Translations under genes and position numbers: made by a program
The notes under the pieces: generated by a model
The model's database searches: none
What the model saw: only the letters and a program-made list of their open reading frames with translations
What the model was told of the DNA's origin: nothing
Shown here: positions 17,629 to 37,687 of the stretch, piece by piece
Layout: each line of letters opens with the position of its first letter
How positions within the stretch are numbered: the stretch's first letter is position 1
Source: a virus
Reading direction: 5' to 3' (one strand)
IMG/VR virus record: IMGVR_UViG_3300042939_000601
Span: 1-41,828 of that record
DNA length: 41,828 bases

Positions 17629-18519
17629 TTAGTCGGTGGGTGGTTGGCTTTGCGGCTCGAGCTTTCCCAGAGCCATGAGGGCCATTCCTCGCATCTGAGG
17701 TATCTCGCTGTTGGCCCGCACCCGGTACCACTCACGGACCAATTGGCGCCAGCTTGTTTGTTCCCAAGGTCTGCTAGCTCTCTCGCTTGCGTTTATTCTA
17801 CGGTCAATCTCGGTCAAGGTTGGCATCATAAGCTGGACCGTTCCTCCCTTTGCCTTGTGTTTTATGATTTCCTCGTCTGTAGCGCTTGTTGTGATGAGCC
17901 AGGCTCGGCTTACGTCCGATCGCCGGGTGAGTCTTTTTATTATTGCGTCCCTGGCTTCTAGTGCGAATGGCAGTAGGCACCTGTCGGTGTGGTGCCCGCT
18001 CTCTTTGCCGTTGCTTATGGCCTCCATTATTCTGTCGAGGTCCACAACCAGGTCTCTTACACCTGCCACTTCTTTTGTGTAGGAGGTCTTGCCGGCAAAC
18101 GGAGGCCCGATTATTAGCATCGTAGGCACTTTGTAATTATCTGCCCTCGACTCTTCGCTTCTCTTCTTATTGTGGCACCTGTCGCACATGGATTGAAGGT
18201 TGGCTTGGTCGTAGCGGTCGCCGCCTTCTGCTATTCGGTCGATGTGGTCTACAACTCTGGCTGGTGCGCCGCATATTACGCACAGTGGTTGCTCGGCTAA
18301 TTGCAGCTTTCTCAGTGAGCGCCATCTTTTGCTTTTGTAGAACTCATATCGTTCCTGAGCTTGAGCGTCCTGCTCTCTTCTGCGCTCTTGGTATTTCTGT
18401 TTTCTGAGATTTTCCCGCTCGTTGAATTGTTGTAGGTGCGCTGCGCAATATGCTCTTGATGCTACTCTCTTTTCTTGGCAGTTCGGTGATTTGCATCGTG
18501 CTTCTATTTTCCAAGGCAT
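17629..18519 (-). CDS. HNH endonuclease fused to P-loop kinase-like domain
   Basis: 296 residues. Residues 1-30 contain a possible zinc finger (C9, C14, C25, H28). A basic helix leads to an HNH domain at about 70-125: CVIC at 80-83, DH at 91-92, N107, then CDRCH at 112-116. A second domain follows, with a P-loop GPPFAGKT (138-145), DLVVDLDRI and helical C-terminal sequence resembling small nucleotide or polynucleotide kinases. HNH proteins beside terminase genes often support cleavage and packaging; a kinase partner would suit DNA-end processing. Substrate of the kinase part is unknown. Confidence 0.82.
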   Translation of the reverse strand: MPWKIEARCKSPNCQEKRVASRAYCAAHLQQFNERENLRKQKYQERRREQDAQAQERYEFYKSKRWRSLRKLQLAEQPLCVICGAPARVVDHIDRIAEGGDRYDQANLQSMCDRCHNKKRSEESRADNYKVPTMLIIGPPFAGKTSYTKEVAGVRDLVVDLDRIMEAISNGKESGHHTDRCLLPFALEARDAIIKRLTRRSDVSRAWLITTSATDEEIIKHKAKGGTVQLMMPTLTEIDRRINASERASRPWEQTSWRQLVREWYRVRANSEIPQMRGMALMALGKLEPQSQPPTD

Positions 18520-18755: not shown

Positions 18756-19051
18756 GTGCTTGCGCCTCGCTTCTCGTAGTGCGCTTTAATTGCGTTCTTC
18801 AGTCCGAGATGAAAGCTCGTCAGTTTGAAAGGAACCCACTCTAATGTCACTCCCTCTGGGTATTTGTCGGCGTATAGGTGGTGCCGGTTTGCTGTCTTTC
18901 GGTCCATGCCCAATGCCCTGCGGCCCTCTTCCTCGGAGCGTACTGCCACGCTGGTTATGGTATCTCCATCCTCGGTTACTGCTGTGACGATAAAAAGCCC
19001 TTCAGGGAGCATCCCATTAAGAAATCCGTAAACATATTTCAGGCGCTTCAT
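18752..19051 (-). CDS. Unknown 99-residue protein next to nucleotidyltransferase
   Basis: Not recognised. It looks like a compact alpha/beta protein: strands GLFIVTAVTEDGDTITSVAV, a helix EEEGRRALGMDRKT, then VTLEWVPFKLTSFHLGLKNAI and a basic end. ATGA overlaps link it to the nucleotidyltransferase-HAD gene upstream and the 78-residue gene downstream. Its place at the end of the modification block makes an accessory role possible, but nothing in the sequence shows one. Confidence 0.65.
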   Translation of the reverse strand: MKRLKYVYGFLNGMLPEGLFIVTAVTEDGDTITSVAVRSEEEGRRALGMDRKTANRHHLYADKYPEGVTLEWVPFKLTSFHLGLKNAIKAHYEKRGAST

Positions 19052-20070
19052 AGCTCAACTCCCTCTGCCTGGAACATTTCCTCTAGCGATTCACTGTTCT
19101 GTGGCAGCGATATAGCTATGGCGCTTTTTTCTCCACGCTGTTCCCAAATGTCATTTATTAGGAATCTGCGACCTCGGGGGAGGCCCATAATTAGTTGGTC
19201 GTATTTGAGCTTGGCCAGTTGTCTTTGTGTTTTTTTTCTTTCGCTCTCGTCTCTGCACGTGGTCACAATCAGGCAAAAGTGGCCGCTGTCCTTAAGCCTG
19301 TTTAGGTATGATATGTTTCTGTCAATTGTTTGACCTTTTTGCTCGTTGTTATCGAATACCAAACACCCGTCAACGTCGATAAAGATTGTTCCGCCTCTTC
19401 TTCGGTGCATGCGCCAGTCTTTGGCGGTTCCCCAGTCTTCAAATCTCTGGGCCTTTATCGCTACGACTCGCTCTCCCTCCCATATCAATTGTTGGTGCAC
19501 GTTTGTGATGCTTGTTGCTTCGTCGCATACGGCTAAAAATTCGGCTGCTGACTCAAATCCGTAGGCTCCCACGTTAAAAAGATTGCTTATTACTTGTTTC
19601 TCTGCGGTCTCTGAAATGCTGTGGAATCCGCTAAGTTTGACGTAGCTCTTGTTGTAGGCGGGCACATCCGGATTGTCCTCAAGCCTGCTTACTATTGTAA
19701 AGTTGCCGGTGCCGGGTAGCTCGGCTTCCACTAGGTTGTCGCAATCTCTTACCACAAAGCATCCCTTGTGCTTCGTCAGAAGCAATGCTTGCTTAACTGT
19801 CTCGACTTGGTTGTTGGTTGGCGGTAGGGCGATTACGTCAATGGAGAGGCCCTTATTGCCATTTGCAATCTGCTGTTTTACCGCCTTGAGGTCTTCCCCT
19901 TCTCGCACTACCGCAGTGACATGAAATTGTCCCCTTAACCCGCTGAGCGCCAGGCTTGCCAGGCACCTGCCGTCCCTTGTGGATAACTTCCACTTCGGTT
20001 GGAGCTTACCGTATCGTTCGCTGTTGCCGTTGCAGGTCAGGAAAACAGTTTGCATTTGCATTTTACCCAT
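19048..20070 (-). CDS. Nucleotidyltransferase-HAD phosphatase fusion
   Basis: 340 residues, two catalytic domains. Residues 1-220 look like a sugar-1-phosphate or cholinephosphate nucleotidyltransferase: CNGNSER..G (13-21), PKW (25-27), VRDCDN with Asp109/Asp111, and EDWGT at 211-215. Residues 225-340 are a HAD-type phosphatase: IFIDVDGCL (Asp232, Asp234), VTTCR (269-273) and FLINDI (Asp307). Such activities occur with APH-like kinases in capsule loci, as with the next gene upstream. Here, beside TET and TAGT genes, it may activate a small molecule or sugar for DNA decoration; that role is inferred. Confidence 0.78.
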   Translation of the reverse strand: MGKMQMQTVFLTCNGNSERYGKLQPKWKLSTRDGRCLASLALSGLRGQFHVTAVVREGEDLKAVKQQIANGNKGLSIDVIALPPTNNQVETVKQALLLTKHKGCFVVRDCDNLVEAELPGTGNFTIVSRLEDNPDVPAYNKSYVKLSGFHSISETAEKQVISNLFNVGAYGFESAAEFLAVCDEATSITNVHQQLIWEGERVVAIKAQRFEDWGTAKDWRMHRRRGGTIFIDVDGCLVFDNNEQKGQTIDRNISYLNRLKDSGHFCLIVTTCRDESERKKTQRQLAKLKYDQLIMGLPRGRRFLINDIWEQRGEKSAIAISLPQNSESLEEMFQAEGVEL

Positions 20071-20825
20071 GTGCTTGCCTGGTGCTTATTACGAATCAAA
20101 ATTCTACTCAGTGCAATCCCAAGCAAAAGGCTCCGCCATTGCTGATATCCTTTGAATTGCGCTAGGCGTCCTATGACGTGCTTGTCTAGTGAGTCGCCAA
20201 AGGTTGGATTTGGGAAGAAGCGTCTATACCATCCGCACAGCGCATCTTGTTCAAGTTTTGCTAGGTCGTAGTATGGCGTATTTAGGGCTCCTTGATCGAA
20301 GTCAATCAGATAGGTCGCTTCTTTTGCTGCAATCATGTTTGTAAAGGTGAGATCGCCGTGGTTGTCGCCAATCGGTAGAAATGCTTCCCTTGTCAGGTTG
20401 TGGAGACCGGATTCCAAAATACTGTGAACTATCCCGTGGTATGGCTGGCCAACTGAACGGGCTTTTGCGTCCAACTGATTTAGGTAGGTTAATATATCGG
20501 CCTTGGGGACTGTCTCCGTGCTCCTTCGTATGTTATCCGCTACCCATTCGATAACGTTATCAATGCGACGCTTCCAGTCTTTTGCTTCCCAAATTGCGGC
20601 CCCGTCAATAAAGTCCATTTCGGCTGAATACACTTCCGGCTGGTCCCCGAACATGGAGGCCATTTGGTACCCGCTTGTATGGACCTTTGGCGTTTGCAGT
20701 GGTTCTGGGAGTCTGGCCCAAATTTGTTTTTCGATGCTTATTTGAAGCTTCTTTCCCTCTTCGCTTTCTTTTCTTATGCGCTCTCCTGCCTTTGTGATGG
20801 TTGCTCCGCTATTGCCTGGTCGCAT
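20037..20825 (-). CDS. APH/choline-kinase-like small-molecule phosphotransferase
   Basis: 262 residues. The C-terminal lobe has the catalytic loop HGDLTFTN (156-163) and the metal-binding IDFD (174-177), then YYDLAKLEQDALCGWY, as in capsule-locus phosphotransferases and choline/aminoglycoside kinases. The N-lobe is short and its nucleotide-binding lysine is not obvious. The start overlaps the glycosyltransferase stop by 17 bases, and its end overlaps the nucleotidyltransferase by 34, so the three are probably made together. Substrate could be a sugar, choline or an amine; I cannot tell which. Confidence 0.78.
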   Translation of the reverse strand: MRPGNSGATITKAGERIRKESEEGKKLQISIEKQIWARLPEPLQTPKVHTSGYQMASMFGDQPEVYSAEMDFIDGAAIWEAKDWKRRIDNVIEWVADNIRRSTETVPKADILTYLNQLDAKARSVGQPYHGIVHSILESGLHNLTREAFLPIGDNHGDLTFTNMIAAKEATYLIDFDQGALNTPYYDLAKLEQDALCGWYRRFFPNPTFGDSLDKHVIGRLAQFKGYQQWRSLLLGIALSRILIRNKHQASTWVKCKCKLFS

Positions 20826-21597
20826 TTCGCCTCCGCTCTCGTAGCCTACACTCGTCCGGATGTATGCGTGGATTTCTAAAGGCTATTTCTGGCATTGGAC
20901 TGCGTCTGTTTTTATTGATTCTCAGCATGTATCCGTATCGCTCTAGGAGATATTCTACGCACTTCTCCTCCTCGGCTCTCCTTGCCTCTGTGCTGGTGTT
21001 CTCCTGCAAGCCTCCCTTCGTGACAAAGCTTTTGGTCGCTACTCCTGTGTTGCCTAGTCGCAATATGGAGCCGTATTTCAAAAAGTATTTGATTGTTCGC
21101 TCGTAGTCGTTCTTATATGGCACCGTCAACTCTAGTTCTTTATCGTGAGTGGACGTAAATCCGAAAGCAAATCCTGCTGCAAAGTAAAGCCCTCGTTTGT
21201 CCTCTTCAAGCATATAAAAGGCGTTGGCTGTCGAACCAAAGCACCAAAGTCCCTGCGGCTGCTTCTTAAATGCTTGGATTATTAGGTCCTCTATGTTTGT
21301 TATCTGCTGTGTCTTTTGTGGGTTATTTGGGTCAGCCTCAACCAGCTTTATGTCGTCCTCCAATTGCACTACTTTTGTCCCGATTGGGTAGTGGTAGTGA
21401 ATGTAGTTTAGTTTTTGCAGGAGGTTCCTTGCTCCCGTATTAGCTTTTTTAAATGGCAAGGCCTCGTATTGCTGTTCGTCCTTTTCGTCACTTAAAAAAA
21501 GGGTTACCCGGTGATGCGTTTCCGGTGGAAGGTCGCTTATCATTTTTGCGCATAGCTCTGCTCTCCTGTGGGTCGGTACTGCTATCTCAAACTCCAT
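20809..21597 (-). CDS. TET-associated glycosyltransferase (TAGT family)
   Basis: 262 residues. It has the TAGT pattern: an N-terminal IAVPTHRR, a VVQLEDDI metal site (Glu80, Asp81, Asp82), LWCFGSTANAFYML, then DYERTIKYFLKYGSILRL (Asp164, Glu166, Arg167) and VATKSFVTKGGL. The family was defined in phages next to TET/JBP enzymes and includes the kinetoplastid glucosyltransferase of base J. It should transfer a sugar to hydroxymethyl-pyrimidine in DNA. It overlaps the dioxygenase gene directly upstream by 11 bases. Confidence 0.87.
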   Translation of the reverse strand: MEFEIAVPTHRRAELCAKMISDLPPETHHRVTLFLSDEKDEQQYEALPFKKANTGARNLLQKLNYIHYHYPIGTKVVQLEDDIKLVEADPNNPQKTQQITNIEDLIIQAFKKQPQGLWCFGSTANAFYMLEEDKRGLYFAAGFAFGFTSTHDKELELTVPYKNDYERTIKYFLKYGSILRLGNTGVATKSFVTKGGLQENTSTEARRAEEEKCVEYLLERYGYMLRINKNRRSPMPEIAFRNPRIHPDECRLRERRRNATRQ

Positions 21598-22456
21598 TTG
21601 GCTCGTCCTCCTCCACTCCGTGCTGCGTCACCTTGAGCTCGGCTTCGGTTGGGATTCCTGCTCGCTTCCTCTCTCGCTCCATCTTTAGCTTTCTGATTCG
21701 TGCAAGCTCCTCTGTCACCGTCTCGCATTTCCACATTTGGTGTAGGGTGTAGTAAACAATCGTGTATCGCTCTGAGTTGTCGGCCAGCTTCTTTATTGGC
21801 GTTACTCCGTGCAAAAGCGATTGTCCGTCAAATATCGTCAAGCTTTGGTCCGCTATCTCTAGCCCTACCCCTATTTCCGGTAGGCTCAGAAATCCTCCTC
21901 CGCAACTGCGCTTCAATGCCAGCATGCAACTACAAACGTGCTTTATGTTGCCGGCATCGAAATGATATTTCAGTGGGTTGTTCTTGTTGATAATGCCGCT
22001 GGTGAATGGGGTTTCTTGCATTTTCCATTCGTTCTTGATTTTGCTCGTTACCCATTTGTTGTGGCTATCGAATACGTCTGGAAAATACTCCTGGTAAATC
22101 CCCACAATCTGCTTGCCGTAGTCGCAAACGACCCGATTCTTCGATGGTGTTTTATGCGCCAACGTTGTAGCTGTACAAAAGTCTCGCCGGAGGGCTATTC
22201 GTGGTTGATAGCCAAAGACTCGGCTGGTTGATTTAAGTCCTAGCGCTCTTGCTCCGGTGTCGTATTTAATTGTTCGGAGTGTCTGCCGCAAGGGTTCTAG
22301 GTCAACGTCCAAGCGTTTGTATAAAATCGCTGGGCGCCCATCAATTCTTATTAGCGTGTCCTCTGTTATTAGGGTCTTGTAGTCTGATTCCTGTGCGCTC
22401 CGTTTTACGTATTCCTTGAGGTCAATCGCCGATTTGGTTACGTCAAGAATTTTCAT
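21587..22456 (-). CDS. TET/JBP-family 2-oxoglutarate/Fe(II) dioxygenase
   Basis: 289 residues from the ATG at 22456. The double-stranded beta helix core carries the iron ligands His165 and Asp167 (KYHFDAGN) and His216 (LLHGVTP), plus Arg230 in ERYTIVYY for 2-oxoglutarate. The stretch GGGFLSLPEIGVGLEIADQS is typical of the TET/JBP group. Members hydroxylate the methyl group of 5-methylcytosine or thymine in DNA. The start was chosen over one 30 codons upstream because that one lies inside the ParB-like gene. No methyltransferase is seen nearby. Confidence 0.88.
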   Translation of the reverse strand: MKILDVTKSAIDLKEYVKRSAQESDYKTLITEDTLIRIDGRPAILYKRLDVDLEPLRQTLRTIKYDTGARALGLKSTSRVFGYQPRIALRRDFCTATTLAHKTPSKNRVVCDYGKQIVGIYQEYFPDVFDSHNKWVTSKIKNEWKMQETPFTSGIINKNNPLKYHFDAGNIKHVCSCMLALKRSCGGGFLSLPEIGVGLEIADQSLTIFDGQSLLHGVTPIKKLADNSERYTIVYYTLHQMWKCETVTEELARIRKLKMERERKRAGIPTEAELKVTQHGVEEDEPNGV

Positions 22457-23027
22457 TTGAGCAGCTTTCCTCAAACACTGTAAGAAGTTTATTGAATACC
22501 TCGGTGTTGTCCCGAAGGCTCGGTTCCTTTGCTCGTATGCTGTCAAATTTGCGCATTACAAGGTCGAAGTCTTGGCTTTCGAATATGATAACGATTTGTT
22601 TTATTGTTCCTGCGTTGTTCTGCTCCTCGGGCTCGGCTTCCTCGGGGAAGGCTATCTCCATGCTAAGTCCGAGGCTTTCTGTCTCGTACTCGTCGGCTCG
22701 TAGGTCTCCAAGTATTTGCTCGACCTTTAATAGGTCTAGTGGTGTTTGCGCTGCTATCTGGTTGTCGGCAAGGCAGAGGGCTAGCTTCTCACTCTCCCGA
22801 AGGCCTCTTTTTATCAACACGGGAATCTTTTTGTATTGTAGTTTCTTCGCTGCCTGAGTGCGGGCATGGCCAACCAAAATCGTATAGTTCTCGTCGCAAA
22901 CCACCGGTTGGGTAAACCCAAATCGCTTTATGCTTTCCACTATGTGCCCGATTTGCTCTTCGGTGTGAAGCTTCGGGTTCATCGGATGTGGCTTTAGCTC
23001 TTCCGGTTGCTTAGTTGTGATTTCCAT
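22443..23027 (-). CDS. ParB/Srx-like nuclease-fold protein (copy 1)
   Basis: 194 residues. The N-terminal ParB-like domain has LKPHPMNPKLHTEEQI, IKRFGFTQPVVCDEN and the motif GHAR (53-56) followed by AAKKL. A C-terminal domain (IKQIVIIFESQDFDLVMRKF) also occurs in the paralogue at 23480-24091. These proteins often accompany phage DNA methyltransferases and modification enzymes. It lies directly upstream of the dioxygenase and overlaps it by 14 bases. It may target or regulate modification; partition is unlikely because no ParA or parS is visible. Confidence 0.8.
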   Translation of the reverse strand: MEITTKQPEELKPHPMNPKLHTEEQIGHIVESIKRFGFTQPVVCDENYTILVGHARTQAAKKLQYKKIPVLIKRGLRESEKLALCLADNQIAAQTPLDLLKVEQILGDLRADEYETESLGLSMEIAFPEEAEPEEQNNAGTIKQIVIIFESQDFDLVMRKFDSIRAKEPSLRDNTEVFNKLLTVFEESCSNENS

Positions 23028-23280: not shown

Positions 23281-23483
23281 AGTGTGCTCCCTACTCTTTC
23301 TGCCAGCATTTGTTCCGCTTGGTCCTGGGTCGTTGTCGGCAAAATATGCAGCACGACTCCTTCTCCCTGGGCGCTTGCTTCAATCATGCAGTCCATTTCC
23401 TGCGAAAGTGATATCAAATCAAATACTGCCTGTCGTATTGGGGTGCCGGGAATTATTCTTACTTGCATTATTACCGATTTCAT
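23277..23483 (-). CDS. Unknown 68-residue protein
   Basis: Begins MKSVIMQVRIIPGTP at an ATG overlapping the stop of ParB copy 2 (ATGA), with AGGAG in front. A longer version starting 22 codons earlier would lie inside the ParB gene and is not used. The predicted beta-alpha-beta pattern (VRIIPGT, RQAVFDLISLSQE, GVVLHILPT) suggests a small alpha/beta fold. No family recognised. Confidence 0.55.
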   Translation of the reverse strand: MKSVIMQVRIIPGTPIRQAVFDLISLSQEMDCMIEASAQGEGVVLHILPTTTQDQAEQMLAERVGSTL

Positions 23484-24091
23484 TCTTTCTCCTTTAGTAG
23501 TCCGTTTGCTCTTTCGTATTCTAAAATCATAGCCAGAACTAGGTCGCACCGCATTGGGATTTCGTGCTCCGTCATCAACCGGTCAATCCGTGACTCCGTC
23601 AAAATGTAGTCATCTGGTTCGTAGTAAAGAACAAGTCTTTTTGTGTCGCCGTCCAGGTACTTTTGTAAGCTCTCTTTAACCTTGTTAATATCTTCTGCTC
23701 TTTCTCCGGTCTCGCCTAGCATTTCAACCATCAGTCCCAAGTCTTCAATTGGGAATTGGTCTTCATTCAGAATCGTCAGGATTTTGTCGACTGCTAGTGG
23801 TTCGAAGCCTGTTTCCTGATTCGTGGTGTTGTCCACTAGCATTAGTGCTTGCTTGGCGCTGTCCGACAGTTTGCTCAAGCGAAGGCATGGCACTTTTGTT
23901 TGTGTTTGCTTGGTTGCTCTCCACCTGCCGTGCCCGATAAGTATCGTGTTGTGCTCGTCTATTACTATCGGCTGTGTCCAACCAAAACGGGAGATTGAAT
24001 TGGCAATATGCTCCAGTTGTTTCTGTGTGTGTGGTTTTGGATTGCTTGGGTGTTCTCGAAGGAGTTCTGCGTCGACGTATTCTAAGTCCAT
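23480..24091 (-). CDS. ParB/Srx-like nuclease-fold protein (copy 2)
   Basis: 203 residues, paralogue of the protein at 22443-23027: LREHPSNPKPHTQKQLEHIA, ISRFGWTQPIVIDEH, GHGR (53-56), then a C-terminal RLVLYYEPDDYILTES domain. Copy 2 keeps the more usual GHGRxRA form of the motif. A GAGGAAA site precedes the ATG. The two copies flank two small genes, which suggests a duplication of a ParB-like unit within the operon. Confidence 0.8.
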   Translation of the reverse strand: MDLEYVDAELLREHPSNPKPHTQKQLEHIANSISRFGWTQPIVIDEHNTILIGHGRWRATKQTQTKVPCLRLSKLSDSAKQALMLVDNTTNQETGFEPLAVDKILTILNEDQFPIEDLGLMVEMLGETGERAEDINKVKESLQKYLDGDTKRLVLYYEPDDYILTESRIDRLMTEHEIPMRCDLVLAMILEYERANGLLKEKE

Positions 24092-34759: not shown

Positions 34760-37687
34760 TTACCTTCCGAACACGTACCAGTTAGACGACACAACATAGC
34801 TTCCAGTACAGGCTGAAAAATACGTTGCCGCTTCGCATGATGATTGATCGCCATAGGCAGAGCAAGATGGATCACCTTCGCAAAGGCTATCCATAGCGTT
34901 CCAAGTGCAGTTTGAATAGTTTTGATTACATCCTGCCGTTGAGCCACAAGTGCCTTCGTTTAGTCCACTGCATGGTTGTGTTCTTCTGAACGGACTAATA
35001 TGCACCCAATCCTTGTAGTTTGAGAGCGTATATGACGTTGTATGGTCGATGCTATCTCCGCTCGATGGAACCAATATCACGTCAGCATTTGACGAGTTTC
35101 CGTTGTAAATCCAATAGTCACGGTCCGGTACGCCGGATATTTGCGGCAGCGTCAATGTAACTCCGGTTGCCCAGGTACAACCTGGTTCGGCGTTGCAGTT
35201 GGTTTGATCGTCAATGCTGCCGCACGATGCTGTGCCAGAACACGCTGCTCCATAAGTGCCTGTGCAATTCCCCGTTGCATAGGTTCCTTGGCAACTGTAG
35301 GAATCGTAACTACCTGAACAGCTAATGTACCACGAGCCACCAGTGCAAGCGCCTGTTCCGCTATCGTACGAACAATAGCCGCCACCATTAGCGTTATTAC
35401 AGGCAGTGCCGTCTCCACCACCATCGCTATAATTTGAGCAATAGTCGAAATTCTGCGTACAACCGGATGTATTGCCGCAACTTGTCTCATCTAACACTGA
35501 GCAGTCTTGCGGCACGTTTTGCCAGCTACATCCTGTGTAGCTGTTGCAAGTAGTTTCGTCGCCATATATGCCACACGACGCCTGTTCCCACGTACATCCA
35601 AGAGTGCTGGTACAATTAAACTCGTCGCCGTTGTAAACCGAGCAATCGTACCCGGCAAACCAACTGCAACCGCCATGTGCATCACGAGCAATGCAATCCG
35701 CTTCGTTTGTATAGCTGCTACAAGCGTTAGTTGGAGAGCCGTTACAGACTGCGTTTTGCGGATCGACAATCCATTCTGTAGCTGTGTTGTCGAGCGTCTG
35801 ATTAGCCGTGATATACTTAACTTTTAACGCTGTACCACCTTGTGACATCAGCGTACTGGATGGAGTTCCCATTCCACCGGCATTTACGCCTAGTTGAAAT
35901 AATCCAAAGCCGTAATGACCGAGGGCTCCAGGAGTGTTGTAGCTGATTAGGGAGTTGGTATTTTTATTGTAAACGGCATCGTAATTGCCGCCGGATACCC
36001 ATGTGCTTACTTCGCCAGATGCGTTGGCTCCAATGTGTCCTTTGTCGACTCCAGAAAACTCGAAATCAATCCATGTGTTGCCGCCATTGTTTTCAAGCGA
36101 TATGTGTTTAGTTGTGCCTGGCAATCCGTTGGATTTGCCGCTTCCGGAAACAGTAATAACACCAGATGTGCCAGCGCCTTGGACATATAGATCGCCAGTG
36201 ACCATACGACCACCACTGAGAATCTTACAGCTTACATCGTCGATAGTAAGTCGTGCGGTGGTTGCTGTTGGATTGAATGCAAGAATTCCAGAAACAGCGG
36301 TTACCTCGCCACGATAGGTGTATGTTCCATTTGTTGTATAGGAGCCAATTGTTACGCCGTTGAATGTAACTACCACACCACCCGACGTTACATTTGAAAG
36401 GGTAAATGTGATTTCATAACGCTCGCCAAGATTTACTGTGACCGTTTGCGTTAATCCACCTGCGCCGTTTGTATTGTGTGATACGCTATTGGATGAATAT
36501 GACCATCCGGTTGGCAGCGTCCATCCGGATGCGCTGCCCGTAAAGCTACCGTTAGTTACTCGTTCTTGAAATGATGATGATACCGAGAGCCACTTACCGG
36601 TGTTCTGCCAGTTGAAGTTTCGGTTGTCTTGGGCAATCGCTCCGGCTGCTCCGGCAAATAGCACACTATGTTGGGTGAAATTGGATAGGGTTAGTCCTGT
36701 CAGTGATAGTGTCGAGGAGTTCTCCCAGCGGTTGTTTGCCGAAACATATTTTAGTACATCCTCGTTTTGTACGTTAGTTGTCTCGACGTCATGCAGTTCG
36801 CCGATTTCGTATCCGTTATCCACCTTAATATAAATGGACCCGACGGTTGCGTGGACTCGCTCAATCCATCCTAAAACAACAAGGTGGTTGGGAGATGCTG
36901 GCGCCGTGGTTGTGTAGGCTCCCGCTGTTGCCGCCGAGAGATAAATTGGCTGGCCTTGCGTAAGTCCTAGCGTGTTTAGTTTGTAAAGTGCTCCACTGGT
37001 CAGTACAAAGCCTTCGGCTCCGGCTGCTATAGATTCGGCTGCGAGTCCTATTGTGGCTCTGGATGTGGTCTCTTGATCGGCTCGGGCGAGCTTAACGGCG
37101 ATGCGGTTTCCCTGGGCGCCGCTTATGTAAACCACCTGGCCTTTGGTTAGTTGGCTGCCCGTATCATTGTAAACTCTTGCATATTCCTGGGCGCCAATGA
37201 CCTGAGTTGTTCCGCCGCCCTTCATCAACAGCGAAAGGGTGCCTTCCCCATCGTCCCATGCCACCTGTCCGGCTGTGGTCAGTGTTTCCGCTGCCAGGGT
37301 ATCCAGGGCGACCAGGTCAAACGTGGGGCTATCTGTCCAGCTAGTGTCATAGTTTGTGCTGCTATTTTTAATTAGGACATCTCCCGTAGCGCCGCCGGCT
37401 GCTACTCCTGGTCCGGCTGGACCGGTCGCTCCCGGTGGGCCTTGCTCTCCGGCTGGGCCTTGATTTCCTGCCGGTCCCGGCTCTCCGGCTGGGCCTTGGC
37501 TGCCGGCTGGACCTTGGGCTCCCGCTGGGCCTTGGGCGCCGGCTGGACCTTGCTGGCCCTGTGGTCCCTGTGGGCCACCCGCTGTGACCTCTACCTTGTA
37601 TTGGCCCTCTACAATGACGGTTGTGTACTGAGTGCTCTCGTCGGTGATTACGGTCGGTGTGGTCTCAATTACAATCGTATCGGTCAT
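34760..37687 (-). CDS. Collagen-like, cysteine-rich tail fibre
   Basis: 975 residues. Residues about 37-95 are Gly-X-Y collagen-like triplets ([11 protein letters not shown]). A phage-fibre shaft follows, including [20 protein letters not shown] and [16 protein letters not shown]. The C-terminal cap is interrupted twice: about 195 residues with 24 cysteines (645-840; units like [13 protein letters not shown]) split the strands TEWIVD and TLTLPQISG, and a second block with eight cysteines (905-960) precedes the final SSNWYVFG. Probably the receptor-binding fibre. TAATG links it to the gene upstream. Confidence 0.88.

Follow-up and report, generated by a model that had tools for sequence, protein, structure and literature searches.

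In the base J pathway of kinetoplastids, JBP and the J-glucosyltransferase act in turn, so that hydroxylation within DNA is followed by glycosylation. Activated sugars are made by a shared logic of phosphatase, kinase and nucleotidyltransferase in the MupP/AmgK/MurU route to UDP-MurNAc and the GmhB/HldE route to ADP-heptose. In the former, the three activities are encoded by separate genes and work in series (PMC5371407). Among phages, RB69 carries candidate UDP-arabinose genes for DNA glycosylation (PMC6024577) and Thanatos encodes a demonstrated UDP-xylose pyrophosphorylase, TH1_063 (PMC12838424); a donor made by the phage therefore has precedent. The TET-associated glycosyltransferase (TAGT) of T6-type phages adds glucose, and bases that carry a hydroxymethyl group or a sugar have been described as acceptors (PMC13216743); according to the same 2026 paper, many phages carry a TAGT without either T4-type glucosyltransferase, and its product there is unassigned.

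The locus described here lies in a window of 41,828 bases, which is the whole of IMG/VR virus record IMGVR_UViG_3300042939_000601. The window encodes head, tail-fibre, terminase, RecE/RecT and replication-initiator genes, among them a large tail-fibre protein with collagen-like repeats (34760-37687), and no similarity to known phages was found at the DNA level. An initial annotation had placed four overlapping genes of a DNA hypermodification cassette at 19048-22456; all four reading frames and their overlaps were recovered at these positions on the minus strand, and the four enzyme classes it had named were upheld by profile matches and intact catalytic motifs. The features are as follows.

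23480..24091, minus strand: ParB-N protein, further upstream in the same string (PF02195, E 4.5e-8)
22443..23027, minus strand: ParB-N/nuclease-like protein, directly upstream of TET (PF02195, E 2e-9)
21587..22456, minus strand: TET/JBP-family 2-oxoglutarate/Fe(II) dioxygenase, 289 aa (PF12851, E 1.4e-13; phrog_6059, E 6.3e-39)
20809..21597, minus strand: TAGT, 262 aa (PF20691, E 1.5e-8; phrog_25200, E 1.1e-23)
20037..20825, minus strand: APH-fold small-molecule kinase with HGDLTFTN and IDFD motifs, 262 aa (PF01636, E 4.9e-4)
19048..20070, minus strand: sugar-phosphate-type nucleotidyltransferase fused to a HAD phosphatase (NT-HAD), 340 aa (assigned by homology, profile and fold)

From TET through TAGT and APH to NT-HAD, successive genes share 11, 17 and 34 bp. 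The four frames are not chance, being long and conserved and falling in four real families. The minus-strand string opens with the ParB gene at 23480-24091, two small ORFs and the second ParB gene (22443-23027), and continues beyond NT-HAD with two small ORFs, an HNH/P-loop ORF, a gap of 236 bp and the small and large terminase genes. The HNH/P-loop ORF (17629-18519), just upstream of the terminase small subunit, combines an HNH domain at its N terminus with a P-loop domain at its C terminus; its best PHROG is phrog_4581, named terminase small subunit, and a relative was found at L096:8632-9456.

The TET gene starts at the ATG at 22456, preceded by GAGGAAAG, and its product of 289 aa scored 50.8 bits against PF12851 (curated Pfam cut-off 34.9). 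With this start, the HxD...H iron ligands are H165, D167 and H216, exactly the residues originally named; R230 is the probable 2-oxoglutarate-binding arginine, and the H, D, H and R positions are invariant in 34/34 aligned relatives. Homologues are often labelled 'queuine tRNA-ribosyltransferase', both in phrog_6059 and in several GenBank records, including those of actinobacteriophages; this label is at odds with the PF12851 match and seems to be a propagated misannotation. TAGT was likewise above its cut-off against PF20691 (35.2 bits, cut-off 27.5). Its EDD at 80-82, also listed in the initial annotation, aligns with the family GT-A acidic motif (D/E)D(D/N), D81 being invariant in 17/17 sequences, and TAGT homologues adjoin TET in Mycobacterium and Arthrobacter phages.

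The kinase fell just below the PF01636 cut-off (20.4 bits, cut-off 23.2), and a homologue (L067) scored 33.1 bits. The HGDLTFTN motif (from 156) and the IDFD motif are present as first reported, and their catalytic residues, H156, D158 and N163 of the HxDxxxxN loop and the metal-binding D175 (IDF), are invariant in 20/20 homologues. Another homologue is found in Marine virus AG-345-E15 (E 8e-7), and an iterative profile gave E 8e-50.

For the window NT-HAD no Pfam model scored above cut-off. A full-length homologue is encoded by AG-345-E15 (E 2e-41), and a profile of 20 sequences matched the solved NDP-sugar pyrophosphorylase 4evw (E 6e-8) and also HAD phosphatases, including the Pnkp1/1xpj HAD domains. 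Foldseek returned 4evw (E 6.8e-8), RmlA, TarI and IspD, and MurU (8hhd, Z 12.6) was among tied fold matches in VIA-align. The AlphaFold models of the window proteins have a mean pLDDT near 60 and are of low confidence. The fold comparison proposed as a check placed the nucleotidyltransferase with sugar pyrophosphorylases, while the kinase matched aminoglycoside phosphotransferases best and weakly (E 6.7e-3, Z 6.1, model pLDDT 59.7). Together, the profile and fold matches support the earlier call of a nucleotidyltransferase-HAD fusion. In the nucleotidyltransferase, R19, P25-K26, D109/D111 and D212 (G...R...PK and metal-binding Asp) are invariant in the alignment, and in the HAD domain D232xD234 (nucleophile), T270/T271 (motif II) and N306-D307 (motif IV) are invariant in 20/20 sequences (numbering in the alignment is one lower than that given here, the first Met being omitted). 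The FPPY(V/I)G insertion carried by phage relatives is absent from the window HAD domain. A role in RNA repair, raised by the likeness to Pnkp1 and polynucleotide kinase, was rejected, as the nucleotidyltransferase matches sugar pyrophosphorylases and its context is glycan loci.

The window shares with the base J pathway members of the TET/JBP and TAGT-like families. In contrast to the window, that pathway has no donor-making genes attached; the product in the phage is a prediction. RB69 and Thanatos resemble the window in that phage enzymes are proposed or shown to make an activated sugar for DNA modification, but in those phages the cytosine is modified beforehand at the free-nucleotide stage without TET, the nucleotidyltransferases are different proteins, and no APH-fold kinase is described. 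As far as shown, the likeness to MupP/AmgK/MurU lies in the same three activities and their proposed logic.

Closer in gene order are the ParB-TET-TAGT operons of actinobacteriophages. Mycobacterium phage Donny (gp1-gp6) encodes ParB, TET, TAGT, a PIG-L deacetylase, a P-loop kinase and terminase, and Arthrobacter phage Klevey (gp64-gp69) is similar as far as the deacetylase; the ParB, TET/JBP, TAGT order is that of the window, and in Donny the terminase is close behind. Their extra genes, a PIG-L-type deacetylase in both and a P-loop kinase in Donny, differ from those of the window and would modify the attached group or the base. Among 31 viral TET loci, ParB was present in 28 and TAGT in 13, often with terminase-like genes next, so that the statement that TET plus TAGT pairs are known in phages holds. 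Phages repeatedly carry ParB-TET(-TAGT) next to terminase, with one further slot that varies, and since this arrangement recurs, the TET-TAGT half of the window is already known in kind. These phages (L001-L031) exchange the gene that sits between ParB and TET or immediately follows TET; its occupants include TAGT, an FkbM-type methyltransferase (L002, L031) and a P-loop protein (L004), suggesting that DNA decoration is being diversified beside the terminase. No operon of this kind carried NT-HAD, unlike the window, and NT-HAD was found in 0/34 TET-bearing records.

Relatives of the kinase and NT-HAD came from elsewhere. Direct searches of viral contigs with peptide patterns from the window NT-HAD, TAGT and APH returned no relatives, and an alignment search built with the marine homologue returned 42 further viral loci. 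In AG-345-E15, NT-HAD and the neighbouring kinase sit within a sugar gene cluster. Wherever a phage locus includes DNA upstream of NT-HAD, the kinase gene precedes it, nearly always with an overlap (41/41 loci, of which about 20 are distinct at 95% identity). Epimerase and glycosyltransferase genes typically surround the pair; large sugar clusters of this kind have been described for cyanophages (PMC7824862). NT-HAD was detected in three of 292 genomes of the cyanobacterial phylum, with the kinase adjacent in all three. A bacterial-genome scan recovered, from a polysaccharide/KDO gene region of Prochlorococcus AG-402-C09 (L080:7983-10055), a single 690-aa NT-HAD-APH fusion that is named by no family model. 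No homologue of NT-HAD was found on plasmids. The two genes are adjacent across lineages and once fused, which is strong evidence that kinase and NT-HAD act in a shared pathway; this uncharacterised pair is met repeatedly in glycan clusters of phages and cyanobacteria, in keeping with the likeness to capsule-locus enzymes pointed out at the outset.

The families and their order in these cyanophage-like and cyanobacterial loci (L033, L038-L078, L080, L088-L090) are those of the window, and the genes overlap or adjoin as they do there (fused in L080). Unlike the window, these loci have no TET or TAGT, and NT-HAD is directly followed by a NAD-dependent epimerase in nearly all of the phage loci, whereas no epimerase adjoins the pair in the window. 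The best match of this neighbouring epimerase is heptose 6-epimerase, and heptose was considered as the sugar and rejected: the score was 128.6 bits against a cut-off of 274.6, and the enzyme is about equally GalE-like. Phylogenetic trees place the window copies within or close to the bacterial ones, on long branches outside the well-sampled phage clade. Since the window APH and NT-HAD are diverged from their relatives (17-27% and 22-35% identity, respectively), their specificity may have changed.

The four-gene set was met only in this phage, and its halves join nowhere else among the records examined. It was absent from terminase relatives, many of them fragments, and the search for the same gene order in phage genomes, which had been put forward as a test, yielded no conserved four-gene synteny. 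The four genes can accordingly not be called one established cassette; elsewhere they are two separate modules. What sets the window apart among the records examined is this joining of TET-TAGT with a probable donor-making pair.

For the added pair, the initial annotation had offered either an activated donor or a phosphorylated or nucleotidyl-linked decoration of the sugar on DNA. The latter would have the kinase phosphorylate the base-linked sugar or hydroxymethyl group after glycosylation, and NT-HAD add or edit a nucleotidyl or phosphate group. Phosphorylation in TET pathways is plausible, as P-loop NTPase genes occupy the variable slot of TET operons (PF18751 in Donny gp5, AAA_18 in L004), and the HAD domain is weakly similar to that of polynucleotide kinase-phosphatase. 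Such action on DNA is nonetheless improbable: the nucleotidyltransferase is of the sugar-phosphate type, and bacteria and phages carry the same pair in glycan loci in which no DNA-modification gene was found. Not one TET above cut-off turned up in the 42 phage records that have NT-HAD, which argues that the pair is independent of DNA modification. Its standing as a unit of glycan loci without TET or TAGT supports the activated donor well.

We hold with moderate confidence that the cassette serves to glycosylate the phage's own DNA with a sugar whose donor it also makes. In the order of reactions that we infer, TET/JBP would act on pyrimidines already incorporated in DNA and hydroxylate their 5-methyl group, with thymine to 5-hydroxymethyluracil as the most likely conversion, and TAGT would glycosylate the resulting hydroxyl to give a base-J-like nucleotide. 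The APH-fold kinase would phosphorylate a free sugar, probably at C1, and the nucleotidyltransferase would use a predicted NTP to convert the sugar-phosphate to an NDP-sugar; the fused HAD phosphatase may remove another phosphate, for example the 6- or 7-phosphate of a metabolic precursor. Kinase, nucleotidyltransferase and phosphatase are the standard toolset for making NDP-sugars, and because TAGT overlaps the kinase gene, the simplest reading is that the pair would supply TAGT with a dedicated activated donor, having been recruited by the phage from glycan pathways that make nucleotide sugars. More tentatively, and somewhat short of an even chance, the product would be a base-J-like nucleotide with a new sugar, beyond the ordinary nucleotide sugars of the host, its donor pathway borrowed from surface-polysaccharide genes. 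If so, TET/TAGT DNA glycosylation could be re-tooled with a dedicated donor pathway and phage DNA sugars would not be restricted to host nucleotide sugars; the four enzymes form a directly testable set.

The pair could instead serve a separate glycan, making a sugar for the collagen-repeat tail fibre (34760-37687), a host-surface glycan or the like, while TET and TAGT use an ordinary host donor such as UDP-glucose. All relatives of the pair that were examined lie outside DNA-modification clusters, mostly in surface-glycan clusters, and glucose is what the T6-type TAGT adds (PMC13216743). We regard this arrangement as unlikely, given that the pair shares 17 bp with TAGT within a ParB-TET-TAGT-terminase string and that no second glycosyltransferase or epimerase was seen among the window proteins scanned (part of the ORFs).

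The base modified by the favoured donor-and-transfer route was considered separately. PF12851 spans both TET and JBP, and hosts may provide C5-methyltransferases, so TET could act on host-made 5-methylcytosine and the glycosylated base would be cytosine, a proposal compatible with any of the readings above. However, neither the window nor any of 20 TET-bearing records, several of them fragments, yielded a C5-methyltransferase (the control matched in 10/14 genomes), and methylation by the host would give sparse sites only. Thymine is therefore favoured as the TET substrate, and a cytosine target appears rather unlikely.

Two further TAGT neighbourhoods were noted. In one phage (L092:5814-7254), with a large terminase that shares 52% identity with the window's, ParB and a distant TAGT-like gene immediately precede terminase, and the 18.9 kb fetched contain no TET. 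In Caulobacter phage Cr30 (L037:4763-8210), an ADDT amino acid:DNA transferase, a TAGT and an inositol-1-phosphate synthase lie in a row, the last of these being possibly another precursor-making gene beside TAGT.
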